A stretch of 51,209 nucleotides of DNA, taken from the NCBI GenBank assembly GCA_022841365.1, contig JALHRP010000024.1, positions 1-51,209 of the forward strand, in the 5' to 3' direction. Positions 26,378-35,557 of the stretch are shown here, one piece after another; within the stretch, counting starts at the first letter, position 1, and every line of letters starts with the position of its first letter. Both the position numbers and the translations under genes were made by a program. The notes under the pieces were generated by a model. It was not told where the DNA came from. It searched no databases and worked only from the letters and a program-made list of their open reading frames with translations. Origin of the DNA: Chitinophagaceae bacterium. Its GTDB lineage: Bacteria > Bacteroidota > Bacteroidia > Chitinophagales > Chitinophagaceae.

Positions 26378-27604
26378 TCAGGTGGTAAGAGGGGCAATGT
26401 GCTGCTTTTTTTGACCGATGCAGAGTAACAGTAAACCGACAAACATTACAACTGCAGCAGCCAGCAGCAGATATCCGTTGTATGGTAGATTGGTTGACTG
26501 CATGGCGGCAATTCCCTGCAGCATCAACAGCACTTCATTACTGATTGCTGCACAAGCAAAAAGCCACAAGCCGGTTTTGGATTGTTTTTTTTCAACTGTA
26601 ATCAGTTGATGTTGTATGAGAAACCCCAGTAAAAAAAAGGAAACAAAAAGCAGCAACACTAAATGTAAAAAAGCAACCACAATGGCCCGTATGCCAAAAG
26701 CATAGGTATTCAGTTCAGGTATTGCAGAGAAAGCCTGCAATATAATTTTAAGGATAAATGCAGCACAAGCTATCAGCCACAACCATTTTACCTGTGATGG
26801 CAGTTGCAACTGTTTGCGTAATTGCAGAATTATTTTAAGCAGAAAACCTGCAGCAATTAATTGAATCATGGCTGCAGCATCGGCTGCAAGCAACATCCAG
26901 CGGGGCAGTCTCATCCACATCATAGATAAAAATAAAGCCGGTACAGCTGTGATCAGTAACAAAATGAATCCTCTGTTCACTTGCTGTTGCAATACAGGTG
27001 TAAGCCATTGTTTGACGGATGCAATAAACAGAAAAGCTATTGCAAATAAAAACCAGCCATTGTACTGAAAATGCAGATAAAAGTAAATGGCCCCGAAATA
27101 GAAGTCCTGCTGTACGCTTTTCTGCATCATTAAATAAGCGAGTGTAAATGTGCCGAGGGCTGAAAGCATGTTCCAGCACAATGCGGCGTACAACCATTTC
27201 TTTTCATTTGTAAGATGCCTGCTGTTTGCTGTCAGTTTAAAAGCAACAGATGCAAAAACAAATGAGACCAAAATTGAAATGGTAGAGAAAGCAATGGAAG
27301 GCGCTGCATATCCCATCAATGGAAAAGTGAACAACATGCCATAACTGCTCCATAGCTGCAGATGCAGTATCTTGTTCAGCTGCTTTTTTTGTTTCTCTGT
27401 TAGTTGTATAAGATGAATGATACCAATAAACAATACCAGCGATACCCAGCCTGCAAATGCAAAATGAGAGTGGGCATGCAGCAAATGTTTCTGATCAAAA
27501 AACGGAAGTGGAAATAAAATTTTATAACGCAGTATTACACCCACTGCTGCCAGAACAGTAAAATTAATAATTGCAATGAGTGACCATTTTTGCAGAAACC
27601 TCAT
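26378..27604 (-). CDS. Multipass membrane protein, heme-copper-oxidase-like
   Basis: This 408-residue protein has about twelve hydrophobic segments and no soluble domain. The first loop/helix carries LLHAHSHFAFAGWVS, a His-rich motif resembling the low-spin heme helix of heme-copper oxidase subunit I proteins. Later come YLHFQYNGWFLFAIAFLF and VAFLHLVLLLFVSFFLLG, each with a potential ligand histidine. I do not find the full set of active-site histidines and cannot assign it to a NO or cytochrome oxidase family. It is transcribed divergently from the nos genes and stands next to the Crp/Fnr gene, so a role in heme-based N-oxide metabolism or copper/heme supply is plausible but inferred. Its ATG at 27604 is 44 bp past the regulator's stop codon. 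Confidence 0.7.
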   Translation of the reverse strand: MRFLQKWSLIAIINFTVLAAVGVILRYKILFPLPFFDQKHLLHAHSHFAFAGWVSLVLFIGIIHLIQLTEKQKKQLNKILHLQLWSSYGMLFTFPLMGYAAPSIAFSTISILVSFVFASVAFKLTANSRHLTNEKKWLYAALCWNMLSALGTFTLAYLMMQKSVQQDFYFGAIYFYLHFQYNGWFLFAIAFLFIASVKQWLTPVLQQQVNRGFILLLITAVPALFLSMMWMRLPRWMLLAADAAAMIQLIAAGFLLKIILQLRKQLQLPSQVKWLWLIACAAFILKIILQAFSAIPELNTYAFGIRAIVVAFLHLVLLLFVSFFLLGFLIQHQLITVEKKQSKTGLWLFACAAISNEVLLMLQGIAAMQSTNLPYNGYLLLAAAVVMFVGLLLLCIGQKKQHIAPLTT

Positions 27605-27648: not shown

Positions 27649-28263
27649 TCAGCAATACACTTTTCCTTTTTCAATTTTAAGCACACCTTTTTCCTGCATT
27701 TGACGTATAGAACGTATAACGGTTTCAACCCGCAGACCCGTCATGTCGGCAATTTGCTGTCTGGTAAGATCTATCTTAAACAATTCATTGTTTAAAAAAC
27801 CATTTTCTTTTTTATACTCCCGCAGCAAGGTTGCAACACGATGCAGGGGGCCGTATGAAGAAATTTCTTTTAAGATCAGCGATTTTGCCCGCAGTCTTTT
27901 CGCCAGCATTTGTGTAAATCCGGCATGCAGATGATAATGCTCTTTCAGCAATTGCAGAAACGATTCTTTACGTAAACGGATAATGGTGCTTTCTTCATCT
28001 GCCACTGCACTTGCAGGATAATTGCCGCCATCAAACAGAGGAGGTTCGCCAAAACTCTCACCTGCACCAAAAAAACCCTGAATAAATTCTTTCCCGTCTT
28101 CATTGCAGTTACACATTTTTATCCGTCCGTCTACAACCTGGTAATAAAAATGCACACGGTCCTCTTCACAAAAAAGCACTTGTCCTTTTCTTACATTATG
28201 AAACGTGGCGCCCCATGCAAGCAGGAGGTTTACATCAATCATGGATAGATCAGTTTTTTGCAT
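27649..28263 (-). CDS. Crp/Fnr-family transcriptional regulator
   Basis: This 204-residue regulator has an N-terminal cyclic-nucleotide-binding fold (residues 15-120; VRKGQVLFCEEDR, GAGESFGEPPLFDGGNYPASA) and a C-terminal winged helix with DLTRQQIADMTGLRVETVIRSIRQM, where the E-x-x-R recognition residues match the FNR/NNR type. It lacks the four-cysteine cluster of oxygen-sensing FNR; the few cysteines (FCEED, CNCNED) do not match that pattern. It could sense NO, heme or another signal. It is divergent from the cytochrome-nosZ genes, with a TGAT-N4-ATCA palindrome in between, suggesting autoregulation and control of N2O respiration. Confidence 0.92.
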   Translation of the reverse strand: MQKTDLSMIDVNLLLAWGATFHNVRKGQVLFCEEDRVHFYYQVVDGRIKMCNCNEDGKEFIQGFFGAGESFGEPPLFDGGNYPASAVADEESTIIRLRKESFLQLLKEHYHLHAGFTQMLAKRLRAKSLILKEISSYGPLHRVATLLREYKKENGFLNNELFKIDLTRQQIADMTGLRVETVIRSIRQMQEKGVLKIEKGKVYC

Positions 28264-28484: not shown

Positions 28485-28967
28485 ATGAAAAAAATTCTGA
28501 TTGCACTTAGTCTCAGTCTGGTTGTATTGTTTTATTCCTGCGGAGGAAATTCAGCAGAGAGTAAAAATGAAACAACAAGTGAACAAACCACAGCGCCTGC
28601 TGATAACGGCAACCCATCTTATGATCCCGAAAGAGGCGCAGGAAAATTTACAAATGTTGAAGTAAAACCTGAGTTGGATAAAGTAATGGCAGGCGCAGGC
28701 ATGATTGTGTATGATGTGAAATGTGCAAGCTGTCACAAATTAACAGATGAAAAACTGGTTGGCCCGGGATGGCAGGGAGTAACTACCCGTCATAAACCTG
28801 AGTGGATCATGAATTTTATTACCAACCCCGACGAAATGCTGAGCAAAGATCCCAAAGCAATGGCGCAGCTTGAACTGTGTCTGGTGCGTATGCCCAATCA
28901 GAATTTAACGGATGATGATGCACGCAATGTGTATGAGTATATGCGTAAAAATGATGGCATTAAATAA
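28485..28967 (+). CDS. Monoheme cytochrome c lipoprotein (nos-linked)
   Basis: This 160-residue periplasmic electron carrier has a lipoprotein-like N-terminus (MKKILIALSLSLVVLFYSC, lipidation predicted at Cys19), an acidic/Thr-rich linker and a class I cytochrome c domain. The heme site is C80-A-S-C-H84, with the axial methionine probably Met136 in LVRMPNQNL. It is 32 bp upstream of nosZ, so it is the obvious electron donor to the reductase; that is inferred from the neighbourhood and from known clade II clusters. It is the first gene of the plus-strand nos run. Confidence 0.93.
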   Translation: MKKILIALSLSLVVLFYSCGGNSAESKNETTSEQTTAPADNGNPSYDPERGAGKFTNVEVKPELDKVMAGAGMIVYDVKCASCHKLTDEKLVGPGWQGVTTRHKPEWIMNFITNPDEMLSKDPKAMAQLELCLVRMPNQNLTDDDARNVYEYMRKNDGIK

Positions 28968-28999: not shown

Positions 29000-30994
29000 A
29001 TGAAATATTCAAAACTAATACTGTTCATCCTGCTGTCAGGATCAGTATTGCACATGATGTCCTGTAAACCGAAAGGTGCTTCAGGAGCAGTAGCTACAGG
29101 CTCTGCAGAAAAAGCTTATGTAGCGCCCGGTAAGTACGATGAGTTTTACAATTTTGTATCAGGCGGTTTCAGCGGACAAATGAGTGTATACGGATTGCCG
29201 AGCGGCCGTTTGTTTCGTGTCATTCCTGTTTTTTCGGTTGATCCGGAAAAAGGATATGGCTACAGCGAAGAAACCAAACCGATGTTAATGACTTCCGGTG
29301 GTTTTGTTCCATGGGATGATTTACACCATGTATCTTTTTCACAAACCAATGGTGAAATTGACGGACGATGGGCATTCGGAAACGGAAATAACACACCACG
29401 TGTTGCACGTATTGATTTAAAAACGTTCCGCACATCCGAAATACTTGAGCTGCCCAACAGCGCAGGTAATCACTCTTCTCCTTTTATTACTGAGAACTCT
29501 GAATACATTGTTGCAGGTACCCGTTTCAGCGTACCCGTTGGTAACAATACTGATGTACCCATTGCATCATACAAACAAAACTTTAAAGGAACCATCAGCT
29601 TCATCAGTGTTGGTAAAGAAGGCGAACTGGATATTGCTTTTCAATTATTGTTACCGGGTGTAAATTTTGATTTAAGCCGTGCAGGTAAAGGCCCAAGCAA
29701 CGGTTGGTTTTTCTTCAGTTGCTATAACAGCGAGCAGGCAAATACCTTGCTGGAAGTAAATGCATCGCAAAGGGATAAAGATTTTATTCTTGCTGTTAAC
29801 TGGAAAAAAGCCGAAGAATATCTCAAAGCCGGTAAAGGAACCAAACAACAGGTGCGTTACGCTCATAATAAATACAATGAGCAAACACATACTGCTACAT
29901 CTCAAATTAAAACAGAAGTAACGGTACTTGATCCTGCTATATTAAAAGACATCTGTTATTTTATTCCCTGTCCAAAATCACCTCACGGTTGCGATACAGA
30001 TCCTACCGGTGAATATATTGTTGGCAGCGGAAAACTGGCAGCTCTTATTCCTGTTTTCTCGTTCAGTAAAATTCAAAAAGCCATTGCAGATAAAACTTAT
30101 GATGGCGACTTTGGCGGTATTCCTGTAATTAAATACGAAGCTGCTTTGTATGGTGAAGTAAAAAAGCCGGGCCTGGGGCCATTGCATACAGAGTTTGATG
30201 CCAACGGTAACGCCTACACGTCTTTTTTTGTAAGCAGTGAAATTGTAAAGTGGAATATTAAAGATTTAAAAGTGTTGGACAGAGTTCCTACTTATTATTC
30301 CATTGGTCACTTAAGTATTCCCGGTGGTGATACAAAAAAACCATACGGTAAATATGTGGTGGCGTATAATAAAATTACCAAAGACCGTTACCTGCCAACA
30401 GGTCCGGAGTTAACTCAAAGTGCACAGATCTTCGATATCAGCGGAGATAAAATGCAGTTGATACTTGATTTTCCGACCATTGGTGAACCGCACTATGCAG
30501 GTTCTATGCCGGCCGATCTCATTAAGAAAAACAGTTTAAAGATTTATAAAATTGATGAGAACAAACATGCGTATGCAGCCAAAGGAGAGAAGGAAACCAA
30601 AGTAGTACGTGAAGGAAATAAAGTACACATTTATGGTACTGCCATCCGCTCACACTTTGCACCGGATAATATTGAAGGGATTAAAGTAGGTGATGAAGTG
30701 TACTTCCATATCACTAACCTGGAACAGGATTGGGATGTGCCGCATGGCTTTGCTATTAAAGGTGCGCCCACGGCAGAGTTACTGATCATGCCGGGTGAAA
30801 CACAAACATTGAAATGGATTCCTGAGAAACCCGGAATGTATCCCATTTACTGTACAGATTTTTGCAGTGCCTTACACCAGGAAATGCAGGGATATGTGCG
30901 TGTATCACCTGCAGGAAGCAGTATGCCGCTTTCATTCAGTTTAGGTAAGCAGGGTGCAGCAGCAGCCGATACAACAAAACCGGCAGGCAAATAA
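29000..30994 (+). CDS. nosZ: Nitrous oxide reductase, clade II (Sec-type)
   Basis: This periplasmic enzyme reduces N2O to N2. It is 664 residues. The N-terminus (MKYSKLILFILLSGSVLHMMSC) has no twin-arginine motif, so export is by Sec, the mark of clade II, and Cys22 may be lipidated. The seven-bladed propeller carries CuZ ligands visible as DDLHH (His109, His110), the NSAGNHSSP loop, CPKSPHGCDTDPTGEY, GLGPLHTEFD and IGHLSIPGGD. The C-terminal cupredoxin has the CuA site C618-x3-C622-x3-H626-x2-M629. All metal ligands appear intact, so it should be active. It is followed by an intra-operon hairpin. Confidence 0.97.
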   Translation: MKYSKLILFILLSGSVLHMMSCKPKGASGAVATGSAEKAYVAPGKYDEFYNFVSGGFSGQMSVYGLPSGRLFRVIPVFSVDPEKGYGYSEETKPMLMTSGGFVPWDDLHHVSFSQTNGEIDGRWAFGNGNNTPRVARIDLKTFRTSEILELPNSAGNHSSPFITENSEYIVAGTRFSVPVGNNTDVPIASYKQNFKGTISFISVGKEGELDIAFQLLLPGVNFDLSRAGKGPSNGWFFFSCYNSEQANTLLEVNASQRDKDFILAVNWKKAEEYLKAGKGTKQQVRYAHNKYNEQTHTATSQIKTEVTVLDPAILKDICYFIPCPKSPHGCDTDPTGEYIVGSGKLAALIPVFSFSKIQKAIADKTYDGDFGGIPVIKYEAALYGEVKKPGLGPLHTEFDANGNAYTSFFVSSEIVKWNIKDLKVLDRVPTYYSIGHLSIPGGDTKKPYGKYVVAYNKITKDRYLPTGPELTQSAQIFDISGDKMQLILDFPTIGEPHYAGSMPADLIKKNSLKIYKIDENKHAYAAKGEKETKVVREGNKVHIYGTAIRSHFAPDNIEGIKVGDEVYFHITNLEQDWDVPHGFAIKGAPTAELLIMPGETQTLKWIPEKPGMYPIYCTDFCSALHQEMQGYVRVSPAGSSMPLSFSLGKQGAAAADTTKPAGK

Positions 30995-31094: not shown

Positions 31095-32108
31095 ATGAAT
31101 ACGCATTTATCACCCATGGCAAGAATTGCATCGTTGATCTGTGCAGTGGGGTTGGCCATAGTCATTTTTGTACCTATGTGGCGTATAGATTTAACCGCAC
31201 CACAATATCCCGAAGGCCTGGGTTTAAAAATTTATCCCAATAAACTTGCCGGTGATATTGATATCATTAACGGGTTGAATCATTACATAGGTATGGCTAA
31301 ACTGGAGACCGACGATTTTATTGAGTTTACCATCCTGCCTTATATCATTGCAGCATTTTCATTGTTTGGAATCATAACTGCCTTGGTTAACCGCCGTTGG
31401 TTTTTTTATGTTTGGATGATTTTATACATCCTGTTTGGCGTTGTAGCCATGTTCGATTTTTACAGATGGGAATATCACTATGGTCACAATCTGGATCCAA
31501 CAGCAGCCATTGTAGTGCCGGGTATGGCTTATCAGCCGCCATTAATTGGCTTTAAACAACTGCTCAACTTCGGTGCTTATTCGTTTCCTGATGTGGGTGG
31601 ATATATTTTCATAGCTGTTGGTCTTATACTGGTAACAGTTGCGTTTCTGGAATGGAAAAAAATAAAAGCCATGTACAGACCTGTACATGCAGCAATAGCA
31701 TTCCTGTTCATTTGCCTGTTGCAAAGTTGTTCTACCGCTCCACAACCAATTCATTATGGAAAAGATATTTGTGCGTTTTGTAAAATGGTTATCAGCGATC
31801 ATCGTTTTGGTGCTGAACTGATCACAACCAAATACAAAGTATACAAGTTTGATGATACACATTGTGCTGTTTCGTTTTTATCGTCTGTAGAAAAAACCGG
31901 ACAGCAGATAGCGGCTGTTTATCTGGCCGATTTTTCACAAAAAGGAAAACTGGTAAAAGCTGAAGAAAGTTTTTTATTGAAAAGTGCGGATCTGAAAAGT
32001 CCCATGGGGGGCAATATTGCTGCATTTGCAAGTGAAGACAGTATGAACAGTTTTAAGCAATCATTCAATGCAACAGTTGTTAAATGGAATGAAATAAATC
32101 TCAAATGA
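31095..32108 (+). CDS. nosL: Fusion of a NosB-like membrane domain and NosL copper chaperone
   Basis: One unbroken frame of 337 residues encodes two parts. Residues 1-190 hold four predicted helices and sit at the position of NosB, the unknown-function membrane protein that follows nosZ in clade II clusters. Residues 195-337 are NosL, which delivers Cu(I) to NosZ: the copper motif is C226-x2-C229-x-M231 (DICAFCKMVIS), followed by KYKVYKFDDTHCAV and KSPMGGNIAAF. At the junction a hydrophobic stretch ends in LLQSC (Cys212), the normal NosL lipobox, now internal and serving as a fifth membrane segment or a cleavage site. The start ATG at 31095 is clear. It overlaps nosD by four bases (ATGA). Confidence 0.9.
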   Translation: MNTHLSPMARIASLICAVGLAIVIFVPMWRIDLTAPQYPEGLGLKIYPNKLAGDIDIINGLNHYIGMAKLETDDFIEFTILPYIIAAFSLFGIITALVNRRWFFYVWMILYILFGVVAMFDFYRWEYHYGHNLDPTAAIVVPGMAYQPPLIGFKQLLNFGAYSFPDVGGYIFIAVGLILVTVAFLEWKKIKAMYRPVHAAIAFLFICLLQSCSTAPQPIHYGKDICAFCKMVISDHRFGAELITTKYKVYKFDDTHCAVSFLSSVEKTGQQIAAVYLADFSQKGKLVKAEESFLLKSADLKSPMGGNIAAFASEDSMNSFKQSFNATVVKWNEINLK

Positions 32109-33337
32109 AAATCTGTATTACCATACTGTTTCTCTTCTTGTTTACAGATGCAACGGCAAAGCTGTGGCGGGTAGGTGCAGGTCAGCAGGAGCGAAGCATC
32201 AGGGCAACGATCAATAAAGCAACCGATGGCGATACCATCTTTATTTATCCCGGTATATATAAAGAAGGTCAACTGATTATCACCAAAAAATTATTTCTCA
32301 AGGGCATTCAATATCCTGTTCTCGATGGAGAACAGAAAGTAGAGATACTCACTATCCGTTGCGATGGAGTAGTAGTGGAAGGACTTTTTTTTAAACGTTC
32401 AGGTCGCAGCAGTTATAATGATATTGCTGCGCTGCGTATTGCAGATTGCCGCAATGCAGTTGTAAAGAACAATCGGTTTGAATCGGGCTATTTTGGAATT
32501 TATTCGCAACATGCAACAGCAGCCATCATTACAGGAAATCGTTTACAGTCTGATGCAAAAGATGAAGTGTCATCGGGCAACGGTATTCATTGCTGGAAGA
32601 GCGACAGTATGCACATCAGCAGTAACACTGTAACAGGTTACAGAGATGGATTGTATTTTGAGTTTGTTACAAACTCATACATAAAAAGCAATACCAGTTA
32701 TGGTAACGTAAGGTATGGTCTGCATTTTATGTTCTCAGGGAATAACAGTTATATCTCCAATGTATTTCGGGATAATGGTGCAGGTGTTGCGGTGATGTAT
32801 TCAAAAAACATCCGCATACAAAACAATCTGTTTGCAGATAACTGGGGAGGTGCAGCCTATGGCATCTTAATGAAAGAAATCACAGACAGCCGTGTTGAAG
32901 GCAACCGTTTTCAAAAAAATTCAGTAGGTGTTATGCTCGAAGGCAGTAACCGTATTCAACTCCTCAAAAACGTTTTCATTCAAAATGGATGGGCCATTAA
33001 AATGCAGGCCAGTTGTATGGATAACAGCATTGAGCAAAATAATTTTTCTGCCAACTCTTTTGATATGGCTACCAATGGTGAGCTGGTACTGAACAGTTTT
33101 AAAAAAAATTACTGGGATAAATACGAAGGATACGATTTAAACAGAGATGGTATTGGCGATGTGCCTTATCATCCTGTGAGTATGTTTTCTATGATGGGTG
33201 AACGCAATGCATCCAGTATGATGTTGTTCCGGAGTTTTATTGTTGGCCTGCTGGATAAAGCAGAAAAAATGCTGCCTGTTCTTACACCTGTTGATCTCAA
33301 AGATCATCAGCCACTAATGAAACCGCTAAAACTGTAA
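32105..33337 (+). CDS. nosD: NosD, periplasmic copper-site assembly protein
   Basis: This 410-residue protein has a Sec signal peptide (MKICITILFLFLFTDATAK) and a parallel right-handed beta-helix made of short repeats with asparagine ladders (for example NNSYISNVFRDN, NNLFADNWGG). NosD works with NosF and NosY to load copper or sulfur into the CuZ site of nitrous oxide reductase. The C-terminal region (YWDKYEGYDLNRDGIGDVPYHP) is the conserved NosD end. The start overlaps the nosL stop (ATGA), so translation is coupled; it stops three bases before nosF. Confidence 0.95.
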   Translation: MKICITILFLFLFTDATAKLWRVGAGQQERSIRATINKATDGDTIFIYPGIYKEGQLIITKKLFLKGIQYPVLDGEQKVEILTIRCDGVVVEGLFFKRSGRSSYNDIAALRIADCRNAVVKNNRFESGYFGIYSQHATAAIITGNRLQSDAKDEVSSGNGIHCWKSDSMHISSNTVTGYRDGLYFEFVTNSYIKSNTSYGNVRYGLHFMFSGNNSYISNVFRDNGAGVAVMYSKNIRIQNNLFADNWGGAAYGILMKEITDSRVEGNRFQKNSVGVMLEGSNRIQLLKNVFIQNGWAIKMQASCMDNSIEQNNFSANSFDMATNGELVLNSFKKNYWDKYEGYDLNRDGIGDVPYHPVSMFSMMGERNASSMMLFRSFIVGLLDKAEKMLPVLTPVDLKDHQPLMKPLKL

Positions 33338-33340
33338 CGT

Positions 33341-34042
33341 ATGATTATTGCAAGTAACGTAACAAAAACATTTGGAAAACTGAAAGCACTGGATAACGTA
33401 AGTGTTATGTGCAGTAAGGGACAAACCATTGCATTAATAGGTCCTAACGGCAGTGGTAAAACAACACTAATTAAATCCATGCTGGGTATGGTGGTGCCCG
33501 ACAGTGGTTTCATCACTTTTGATGAACATAATATTCTGCACAACTGGAACTACCGGAGCCGTATAGGTTATATGCCGCAAATTGGCCGTTATCCGGATAA
33601 CATGCGCATCGGCCATGTGTTTGAAATGATGAAAGACCTGCGTAAAAATTCAACCGCCTCAACAGATGAAGAATTGATTACTGCATTTGGGTTGGATAAG
33701 CTGATGCACAAAAAAATGCAGACACTCAGCGGAGGAACGAGGCAAAAAGTTAGTGCATCACTCGCCTTTTTATTTAACCCCGATGTGTTGATCCTTGATG
33801 AACCAACTGCGGGACTTGATCCCGTTGCTTCTGAAATACTGAAACAGAAAATGATCCAGGAAAAAGAAAAGGGCAAACTGATTTTAATAACATCGCATGT
33901 TTTGAGTGAACTGGATGATGTAGTGAGCGAAATCATTTATATGCAGGATGGTCAGTTGAAATTTCATAAATCACTTGAACAGTTACAGGAAGATACCGGT
34001 CAGCAAAAACTGGCCAAAGCCATTGCACAAATAATGAAATAA
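33341..34042 (+). CDS. nosF: NosF, ABC transporter ATPase
   Basis: This 233-residue cytosolic ATPase powers the NosDFY assembly complex. Visible motifs are Walker A GPNGSGKTT (residues 34-42), the signature LSGGTRQK (129-136), Walker B VLILDEPTAGLDP (D153, E154) and the switch His in TSHVLSEL. It begins three bases after nosD and ends 39 bp before nosY. No fused membrane domain is present. Confidence 0.96.
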   Translation: MIIASNVTKTFGKLKALDNVSVMCSKGQTIALIGPNGSGKTTLIKSMLGMVVPDSGFITFDEHNILHNWNYRSRIGYMPQIGRYPDNMRIGHVFEMMKDLRKNSTASTDEELITAFGLDKLMHKKMQTLSGGTRQKVSASLAFLFNPDVLILDEPTAGLDPVASEILKQKMIQEKEKGKLILITSHVLSELDDVVSEIIYMQDGQLKFHKSLEQLQEDTGQQKLAKAIAQIMK

Positions 34043-34081: not shown

Positions 34082-34852
34082 ATGATGCAGACGATGATTA
34101 AATATGTGGTGCTTGATCTGATCAAAAACAGGATTATTCTTGTGTACACATTTTTTTTGTTGCTGATGTCTGTAGGGATGTTCAGCATGGATGAAAACAC
34201 CACCAAAGGAATTATGAGTTTAATGAACCTTGTGCTCATCATTATTCCGCTGGTGAGTATTATTTTTTCAACCATTTACGTGTATAATTCATCCGAATTT
34301 ATTGAGCTGCTTGCAGCGCAGCCGCTGAAACGAAAATCGCTGTGGCTCAGTATTTACAGTGGTTTAGCGCTGTCGTTATCGCTGGCTTTTATGATCGGTG
34401 TTGGTATTCCGGTGTTATTGTTTGATGGTACGCTTACCGGATGGGTGCTTGTGTTATCCGGTCTTTTTCAAACAATCATTTTTACAGGTATTGCTTTGCT
34501 TGCTGCTGTAAAAACAAGAGATAAAGCAAAAGGAATTGGTGTGGCTATTTTTCTCTGGTTCTTCTTTACACTTATTTATGATGGGTTGGTGCTGCTGCTG
34601 TTATTCCAGTTCAGCGATTATCCATTAGAGAAACCGATGATTGCTTTGAGTATGCTCAATCCTGTAGATTTATCACGGATTTTGATTTTGCTCAAGCTGG
34701 ATATATCTGCATTGATGGGTTATACAGGTGCGGTTTTCAGCAATTTTTTTGGCAGCGGATTCGGAATGCTGCTTTCTGTCCTTATTTTATTTCTCTGGTC
34801 TGCAGTGCCGGTTTGGTTTTCGTTAAAACAATTTCAACGTAAAGATTTATAA
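34082..34852 (+). CDS. nosY: NosY, ABC transporter permease
   Basis: This 256-residue membrane subunit has six predicted helices (starting VVLDLIKNRIILVYTFFLLLMSVGM) and belongs to the ABC-2 permease type. It pairs with NosF and connects to NosD in the periplasm during CuZ maturation. Two adjacent ATGs (34082 and 34085) could start it. SEFIELLAAQPLKRKSLWLS is the family-like cytosolic loop. It is the last of the classical nos genes here. Confidence 0.95.
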   Translation: MMQTMIKYVVLDLIKNRIILVYTFFLLLMSVGMFSMDENTTKGIMSLMNLVLIIIPLVSIIFSTIYVYNSSEFIELLAAQPLKRKSLWLSIYSGLALSLSLAFMIGVGIPVLLFDGTLTGWVLVLSGLFQTIIFTGIALLAAVKTRDKAKGIGVAIFLWFFFTLIYDGLVLLLLFQFSDYPLEKPMIALSMLNPVDLSRILILLKLDISALMGYTGAVFSNFFGSGFGMLLSVLILFLWSAVPVWFSLKQFQRKDL

Positions 34853-34861
34853 TTTATTCTT

Positions 34862-35152
34862 ATGTTCCACATAAATATCAATGATCTGTCAGCAAACGAA
34901 AAAGTAACAAAAAGAGCAGTGTATAAAGATGAACGTTTTCATGTAATGCTGTTACATTTACCGGAAGGGGAAGGGTTAAAACCACACAAGTCTAAAACCG
35001 ATGCCTGCTGTGTTGTACAAAAAGGTGAAGTGGAGTTTATACTGGAAGAGGAATCGTTTCATTACCGGAAAGGTGATACGTTTTCTTTTAAAGCAGGTGA
35101 GCTGCATGCATTAAAAGCCATCACCGATTTCAGTATGCTGATCATTAAATAA
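34862..35152 (+). CDS. Small cupin protein
   Basis: This 96-residue cupin has KPHKSKTDACCVVQKGEVEFIL in place of the first motif and ELHAL at the second, so only part of the usual metal ligands is kept. It lies 9 bp after nosY and 6 bp before the haemoglobin gene, hence the same operon. Cupins of this type occur at the end of nos or NO-related clusters in Bacteroidota, but the role is unknown. It may bind a metal or a nitrogen-oxide-related ligand. Confidence 0.85.
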   Translation: MFHININDLSANEKVTKRAVYKDERFHVMLLHLPEGEGLKPHKSKTDACCVVQKGEVEFILEEESFHYRKGDTFSFKAGELHALKAITDFSMLIIK

Positions 35153-35158
35153 AGACAC

Positions 35159-35557
35159 ATGAAAAAAGAAATTGAAAACCGAAGCGATATTGAACAACTC
35201 GTGAATACGTTTTATGAAAAGGTAAAAAGAGATGAAGTGATCGGTGATTTTTTTACCCGTGTAACAGTTATTGACTGGGACAAGCATTTGCCGGTGATGT
35301 ATGATTTTTGGGAGAATATTATTTTTCATGTGGGTGGGTACACCGGCAACCCCATGAAACATCATGAAGCATTGCATCGCAAAGAACCTTTACGAGCCGT
35401 TCATTTTAACAGGTGGACAGCTTTATTTAATGAAACGGTTGATGAATTGTTTCAGGGACAAAAAGCAGAGCAGGCCAAACAACGGGCCTTATCTATTGCA
35501 ACAGTTATGCGTATAAATATTATTGGTTTGCCAAACCAGGAAGAATCAATTTATTAA
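35159..35557 (+). CDS. Group III truncated haemoglobin
   Basis: This 132-residue 2-over-2 globin has the group III pattern: IEQLVNTFYEKVKRDEVIGDFF, WDKHLPVMYDFWENIIF with distal-site aromatic residues, and the proximal histidine in RAVHFNRWTALF, followed by AKQRALSIATVMRINI. Truncated globins of this group often bind O2 or NO and are linked to NO protection. As the last gene of the nos run, it may remove NO that would damage the copper sites. It ends before a bidirectional terminator. Confidence 0.92.
   Translation: MKKEIENRSDIEQLVNTFYEKVKRDEVIGDFFTRVTVIDWDKHLPVMYDFWENIIFHVGGYTGNPMKHHEALHRKEPLRAVHFNRWTALFNETVDELFQGQKAEQAKQRALSIATVMRINIIGLPNQEESIY

Follow-up and report, generated by a model that had tools for sequence, protein, structure and literature searches.

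Organization of the nos locus

The window, i.e. the whole stretch of DNA that was analysed (51,209 nucleotides from a Chitinophagaceae bacterium), carries a clade II nitrous oxide reductase cluster in which the genes follow each other in the order c-type cytochrome, nosZ, nosBL, nosD, ABC ATPase and ABC permease. The gene designated nosBL is a single open reading frame of 337 amino acids in which a NosB domain is joined to a NosL domain. The following features were located, all of them on the forward strand:

28485..28967, +, c-type cytochrome (PF00034, 6.9e-8)
29000..30994, +, clade II Sec-type nosZ, upstream of nosBL (TIGR04246, 923 bits, cut-off 625)
31095..32108, +, nosBL fusion gene (337 aa, stop included; a single frame here, in locus L032 and in other relatives)
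31095..31655, +, NosB domain, residues 1-187 (16-sequence alignment, helices of a low-confidence model, motifs LNHYIGM and YGHN)
31656..31682, +, basic linker KKIKAMYRP, residues 188-196 (sequence; net charge of the comparable stretch in fusions)
31671..31673, +, in-frame ATG (Met193), 19 residues before Cys212, a possible internal start in this genome
31683..31727, +, fifth hydrophobic helix, residues 197-211, a putative retained lipoprotein signal sequence (sequence, model, charge)
31716..31730, +, lipobox LLQSC, with the Cys212 codon at 31728-31730 (sequence; conservation in fusions)
31731..32105, +, NosL copper-chaperone domain, residues 213-337 (PF05573, 1.2e-14)
31770..31787, +, CAFCKM (C226, C229, M231), the CXXCXM motif of clade II NosL (sequence)
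32105..33337, +, nosD, downstream of nosBL (TIGR04247, 413 bits, cut-off 300)
33341..34042, +, ABC ATPase at the nosF position (PF00005, 4.4e-28)
34082..34852, +, ABC-2 permease at the nosY position (PF12679, 3.6e-7)

The junction of the two domains contains no stop codon, the calculated mass is 37.8 kDa for the full-length product and 13.9 kDa for the part that begins with Cys212, and the ATG of nosD overlaps the TGA stop of nosBL (ATGA). The c-type cytochrome may possibly act as the electron donor. Lgt (two matches) and LspA (one match) are encoded in the same genome. The region 34862-35557 (+), located after nosY, contains a cupin together with a bacterial-type globin of marginal score (21.1 bits, cut-off 21). 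A hydrophobic protein of 408 aa containing AHSHFAFAGW is encoded at 26378-27604 (-) and has no Pfam match above cut-off; it is adjoined by an FNR/CRP-type regulator (27649-28263, -).

The initial annotation had described one frame made of a four-helix NosB-like domain and NosL, with the lipobox LLQSC and its Cys212 retained inside the polypeptide. Both statements proved correct: the open reading frame, the Pfam and NCBIfam matches and the motifs agree on a NosB-NosL fusion placed between clade II nosZ and nosD. Loss of a junction stop codon through a sequencing error, an objection raised in the same annotation, is excluded in practice since the two domains share one stop-free frame in L032, a 94% identical locus of a named assembly, and in 95 further distinct loci; no sign of such a loss was seen. 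The other objection, an unrelated N-terminal family without nos linkage, is ruled out by the surrounding nos cluster and by the NosB motifs.

Domains and membrane topology

The N-terminal part of nosBL gave no Pfam or NCBIfam match above cut-off, the Pfam search with 16 NosB members yielded no consistent family, and a sequence search of the PDB with NosB retrieved no relative (best E 0.77). The domain was assigned from its position in a clade II nos cluster, adjoining nosZ and nosD, and from the presence of LNHYIGM (residues 61-67) and YGHN (residues 129-132), both named as NosB motifs in PMC9697520. The alignment of 16 sequences displays 40 invariant columns. These include H63 and M67, which are possible copper ligands.

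NosB has been described with 4 or 6 membrane helices (PMC11388526). In the present protein four hydrophobic helices, at about residues 10-30, 78-98, 102-122 and 167-187 (limits set by eye), precede the helix that carries the lipobox, as would befit a polytopic protein; the charge pattern and a low-confidence model agree. This AlphaFold2 model, based on only 7 sequences, is poor (mean pLDDT 51.6), too poor for use, and contains five long helices (7-34, 72-98, 101-129, 151-188 and 194-213), the fifth of which ends at the lipobox. The four-helix domain of the initial annotation is therefore correct, the lipobox helix being a fifth one at the low confidence of the model.

The fraction of K and R residues, computed over the 208 loci of the tree described below, amounts to 0.385 in the short loop between the second and third helices and to 0.06 in each of the two long loops. 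The 12 residues that lead up to the uncharged run have a mean net charge of +3.7 in 97 fusions versus +2.6 in separate NosL proteins, the uncharged run before the cysteine has a median length of 16 residues in fusions and 14 in separate NosL, and the 10 residues after the cysteine have a net charge of about 0 in fusions. According to the positive-inside rule, the K/R-rich loop and the basic stretch before the fifth helix would place both ends of NosB inside and orient the lipobox helix N-in/C-out, with the lipobox outside, as lipoprotein processing needs. The linker 188-196 is probably cytoplasmic and would represent the tail of NosB merged with the n-region of the NosL signal peptide.

The NosL domain is matched by PF05573 at residues 223-335 (1.2e-14, 55.2 bits, cut-off 24) and weakly by the solved NosL 7osf_H (E 0.073). 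NosL serves CuZ as a Cu(I) chaperone and is predicted to carry a lipid anchor, and the CXXCXM motif was described for its clade II members (PMC6530538). C229 and M231 are kept in 96 of the 97 fusions and C226 in 90. All six fused NosL of one family code, f30 (L147, L166, L167, L172, L181, L184), have the first cysteine replaced and show no CxxCxM at the measured place.

Distribution of the fusion

Loci were counted as fused when both domains lie in one stop-to-stop frame, L037 included despite a NosL that is cut short. NosB was found in 95 of 195 sampled genomes of the same family, and the proposed comparison of nos clusters with separate or fused genes could be carried out on these 95: 71 are fused, 23 are separate and one (L006) is interrupted. 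The fusion is thus not rare in itself: it is commonplace in its family and predominates among the genomes sampled there. Lacibacter cauensis and L. luteus are among its carriers. A sample of the phylum contained NosB in 132 of 395 genomes, 123 of them outside the family of the window, and the 122 of these that were fetched comprise 22 fused and 100 other loci. G342, which has a NosB match, was not fetched, and second NosB matches in G110, G141 and G253 were left uncounted. Nine loci are exact NosB duplicates and are removed from all distinct counts.

Of the 97 distinct fusions, 70 have the family code of the window (f1), 22 come from the rest of the phylum and 5 from named contigs. Those outside the family belong to 15 family codes, and one named contig is unplaced. 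A candidate outside the phylum, Gemmatirosa, appeared fused by tblastn (one piece) and was rejected, as it consists of two genes that share a frame but are separated by a single stop.

A NosB domain stands beside NosL in the 97 fused loci and in 112 of 124 separate distinct loci. The 12 others contain no NosL in the fetched stretch and were excluded from the lipobox counts; each of these NosB relatives (L208, L210, L216, L218, L220, L222, L225, L228-L232) scores below 180 bits against the NosB profile. Both the lipobox counts and the tree omit L006, in which a stop interrupts the frame after the lipobox. The separate NosL proteins whose signal could be read number 120, as nine separate loci yielded two each. 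In these loci (L150, L157, L160, L178, L182, L185, L190, L193, L201) two NosL-like genes lie near one NosB, and the second starts 0.5-0.8 kb past the NosB stop.

Conservation of the internal lipobox

The lipobox cysteine is present in 97 of 97 distinct fusions, a conservation that partly reflects shared ancestry within one family (of the 97 rows, 70 carry the code f1 and a further 4 are named Chitinophagaceae). It lies 12-15 residues before the CxxC motif, the distance being taken to an approximate place in the 10 rows where this motif is not at the measured place. Its codon is TGC in 61 fusions and TGT in 36. The preceding residue (-1) is S in 67 cases, G in 26, A in 3 and N in 1; G, A or S therefore occupies this position in 96 of 97 fusions versus 27% at positions -12 to -5. 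The adjacent hydrophobic stretch varies almost like chance, with a pairwise identity between fusions of 0.155 at positions -14 to -4 versus 0.133 expected from composition. Separate NosL proteins behave similarly, with the cysteine in 120 of 120 and G, A or S at -1 in 116 of 120, and within the family of the window the make-up of the -1 residue is similar in fused and separate proteins.

The consensus among fusions is loose. Among fusions, 43 of 97 contain the textbook, PROSITE-like pattern [LVI][ASTVI][GAS]C; among separate NosL, 50 of 120 do. A looser lipobox pattern is present in 89 of 97 and 99 of 120, respectively. The NosB cores of the same fusions, 18,070 residues in all, served as a control and contain the loose pattern 10 times, spread over 10 loci.

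A quick tree of 208 loci, 97 of them fused, was built from the NosB and NosL cores under LG+G4 without a mixture model. The state changes between fused and separate 24 times on this tree and likewise 24 times with FastTree, and at least 21 times once branches with support under 80 are collapsed. With a midpoint root the 24 changes are divided into 11 fusions and 13 splits, counts that depend on the position of the root. The NosL frame directly follows the NosB stop in the same frame in 13 separate loci, L006 included, and one form may therefore easily turn into the other. In L006 (G179) the NosB-lipobox frame stops just after the lipobox and NosL continues in the same frame; the stop reflects either a recent break or an error in sequencing.

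After pruning to the 97 fused rows, the tree has a length of 37.1, of which branches inferred to be fused at both ends account for 30.2 substitutions per site. Parsimony requires 0 changes at the cysteine and 18 at -1; the columns between -14 and -4, both included, change 52-65 times each. Such a contrast, accumulated over this length of fused branches, argues that the lipobox is kept by selection and not by lack of time. An internal lipobox that follows a membrane domain and appears to be maintained by selection is the arrangement expected of a hypothetical class of LspA-processed polyproteins.

Proposed processing of the fusion protein

These observations are best accommodated by a polyprotein, and NosB-NosL of the clade II nitrous oxide reductase cluster is probably one that yields free NosL after lipidation by Lgt and cleavage by LspA. 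The proposed processing can be summarized as follows. NosB would insert with four helices and both ends in the cytoplasm. The old signal peptide of NosL, now a fifth helix oriented N-in/C-out, would export NosL and place the lipobox on the outward side of the membrane. Lgt would then lipidate Cys212 and LspA would cut before it, leaving NosB with a short tail and the spent signal helix, plus a separate lipidated NosL able to deliver Cu(I) for CuZ assembly. FbcH of Bradyrhizobium, the cytochrome b/c1 polyprotein, comprises a polytopic membrane protein and a periplasmic one that are synthesized as a single chain and separated by a cut within it, at an internal signal sequence. FbcH is cut by signal peptidase I, whereas the lipoprotein peptidase LspA would act on NosB-NosL. 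The question raised by the initial annotation, whether signal peptidase II cuts the fusion in two, receives indirect support from the lipobox maintained across 97 fusions. The fusion, its distribution, the topology signals and the persistence of the lipobox are observed here; lipidation, cleavage and an interchangeability of the fused and separate forms are inferred.

Since the lipobox is read by Lgt as well, its persistence could reflect lipidation that is not followed by cleavage. In an alternative reading, the fusion would stay whole as a five-helix protein that tethers NosL to NosB, with Cys212 lipidated or not, and the copper chaperone would be kept beside NosB and NosDFY. The prevalence of the single chain among the NosB-bearing genomes sampled from the family (71 of 95) is in keeping with such a tether, as are the slightly longer helices of the fused proteins and the more basic stretch before them. 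A tether, however, has no need of the cysteine or of a small residue in front of it; both persist, whereas the helix changes freely. The frequent return to separate genes, in 13 of the 24 changes (midpoint root), likewise suggests that tethering is not essential; we consider an uncut chain clearly less likely than cleavage. Far less credible, and close to negligible, is a role of the lipobox cysteine as a copper ligand in place of lipid attachment. Full conservation in 97 fusions of a copper chaperone would suit such a ligand, but the small -1 residue is kept too, and a soluble Paracoccus NosL that lacks this cysteine binds one Cu(I) with attomolar affinity (PMC6530538).

Free NosL could also arise besides the fusion if ribosomes began a second time before the signal sequence, here at Met193. 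An A-rich stretch lies upstream of this codon, a plausible signal peptide would be left, and an ATG followed by K or R precedes the helix in 33 of 97 fusions. The arrangement is nevertheless poorly shared: in 25 of the 97 the interval from -34 to -13 contains no ATG, GTG or TTG and in 53 it contains no ATG, the same-genus relatives L003 and L004 have no ATG in that interval, and L032, with 94% identity, is the one other locus with an ATG at the place of Met193. As a general mechanism, a conserved internal start was therefore rejected as unlikely, and initiation at such a site is a very improbable origin of NosL. Returning to cleavage by LspA, we incline to the view that fusions in Bacteroidota arose and split many times since release at the internal lipobox would make them about equal to separate genes.

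Relation to published work

The NosB-NosL fusion and its hint at copper handling were known before. The NosB of Dyadobacter fermentans was reported as fused to NosL in PMC9697520, which cites van Spanning 2011 and Hein 2017, proposes the name NosB-L for the protein of part of the flavobacteria, with two genes in others, and takes the fusion as a hint of a copper role for NosB. The reading of the initial annotation that ties NosB to the copper chaperone by fusion was accordingly right, but both the fusion and the hint had already been published there. The proteins of Flavobacterium azooxidireducens and Dyadobacter fermentans have the same two domains, in the same order and with the same LNHYIGM and YGHN motifs, and the Flavobacterium gene is located between nosZ and nosD as in the window; the present fusion differs in its origin from another family, the Chitinophagaceae. 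Separate clade II NosB and NosL are the same two proteins, with the lipobox cysteine and CXXCXM of NosL as in the fusion, encoded by two genes.

The evidence on the buried lipobox is the new part of the present analysis. The words lipobox, lipoprotein, signal peptidase and cleaved are all absent from the main text of PMC9697520, nothing on processing of the fusion was found in passages of PMC10924467 and PMC13274427, and the term 'fused' in PMC11388526 refers to nitric oxide reductase. No publication on lipobox processing of NosB-L was found in the open-licence literature searched.

According to PMC9697520, Wolinella needs NosB for its clade II N2O respiration, and the fusion bears on the role of this protein. 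If the chain is cut, the fusion would speak for equal dosage of the two proteins and not for a lasting complex, and copper handling by NosB could not be deduced from it alone; in an uncut chain the chaperone would be held at NosB. Cleavage by LspA at such an internal site, if true, would be out of the ordinary.
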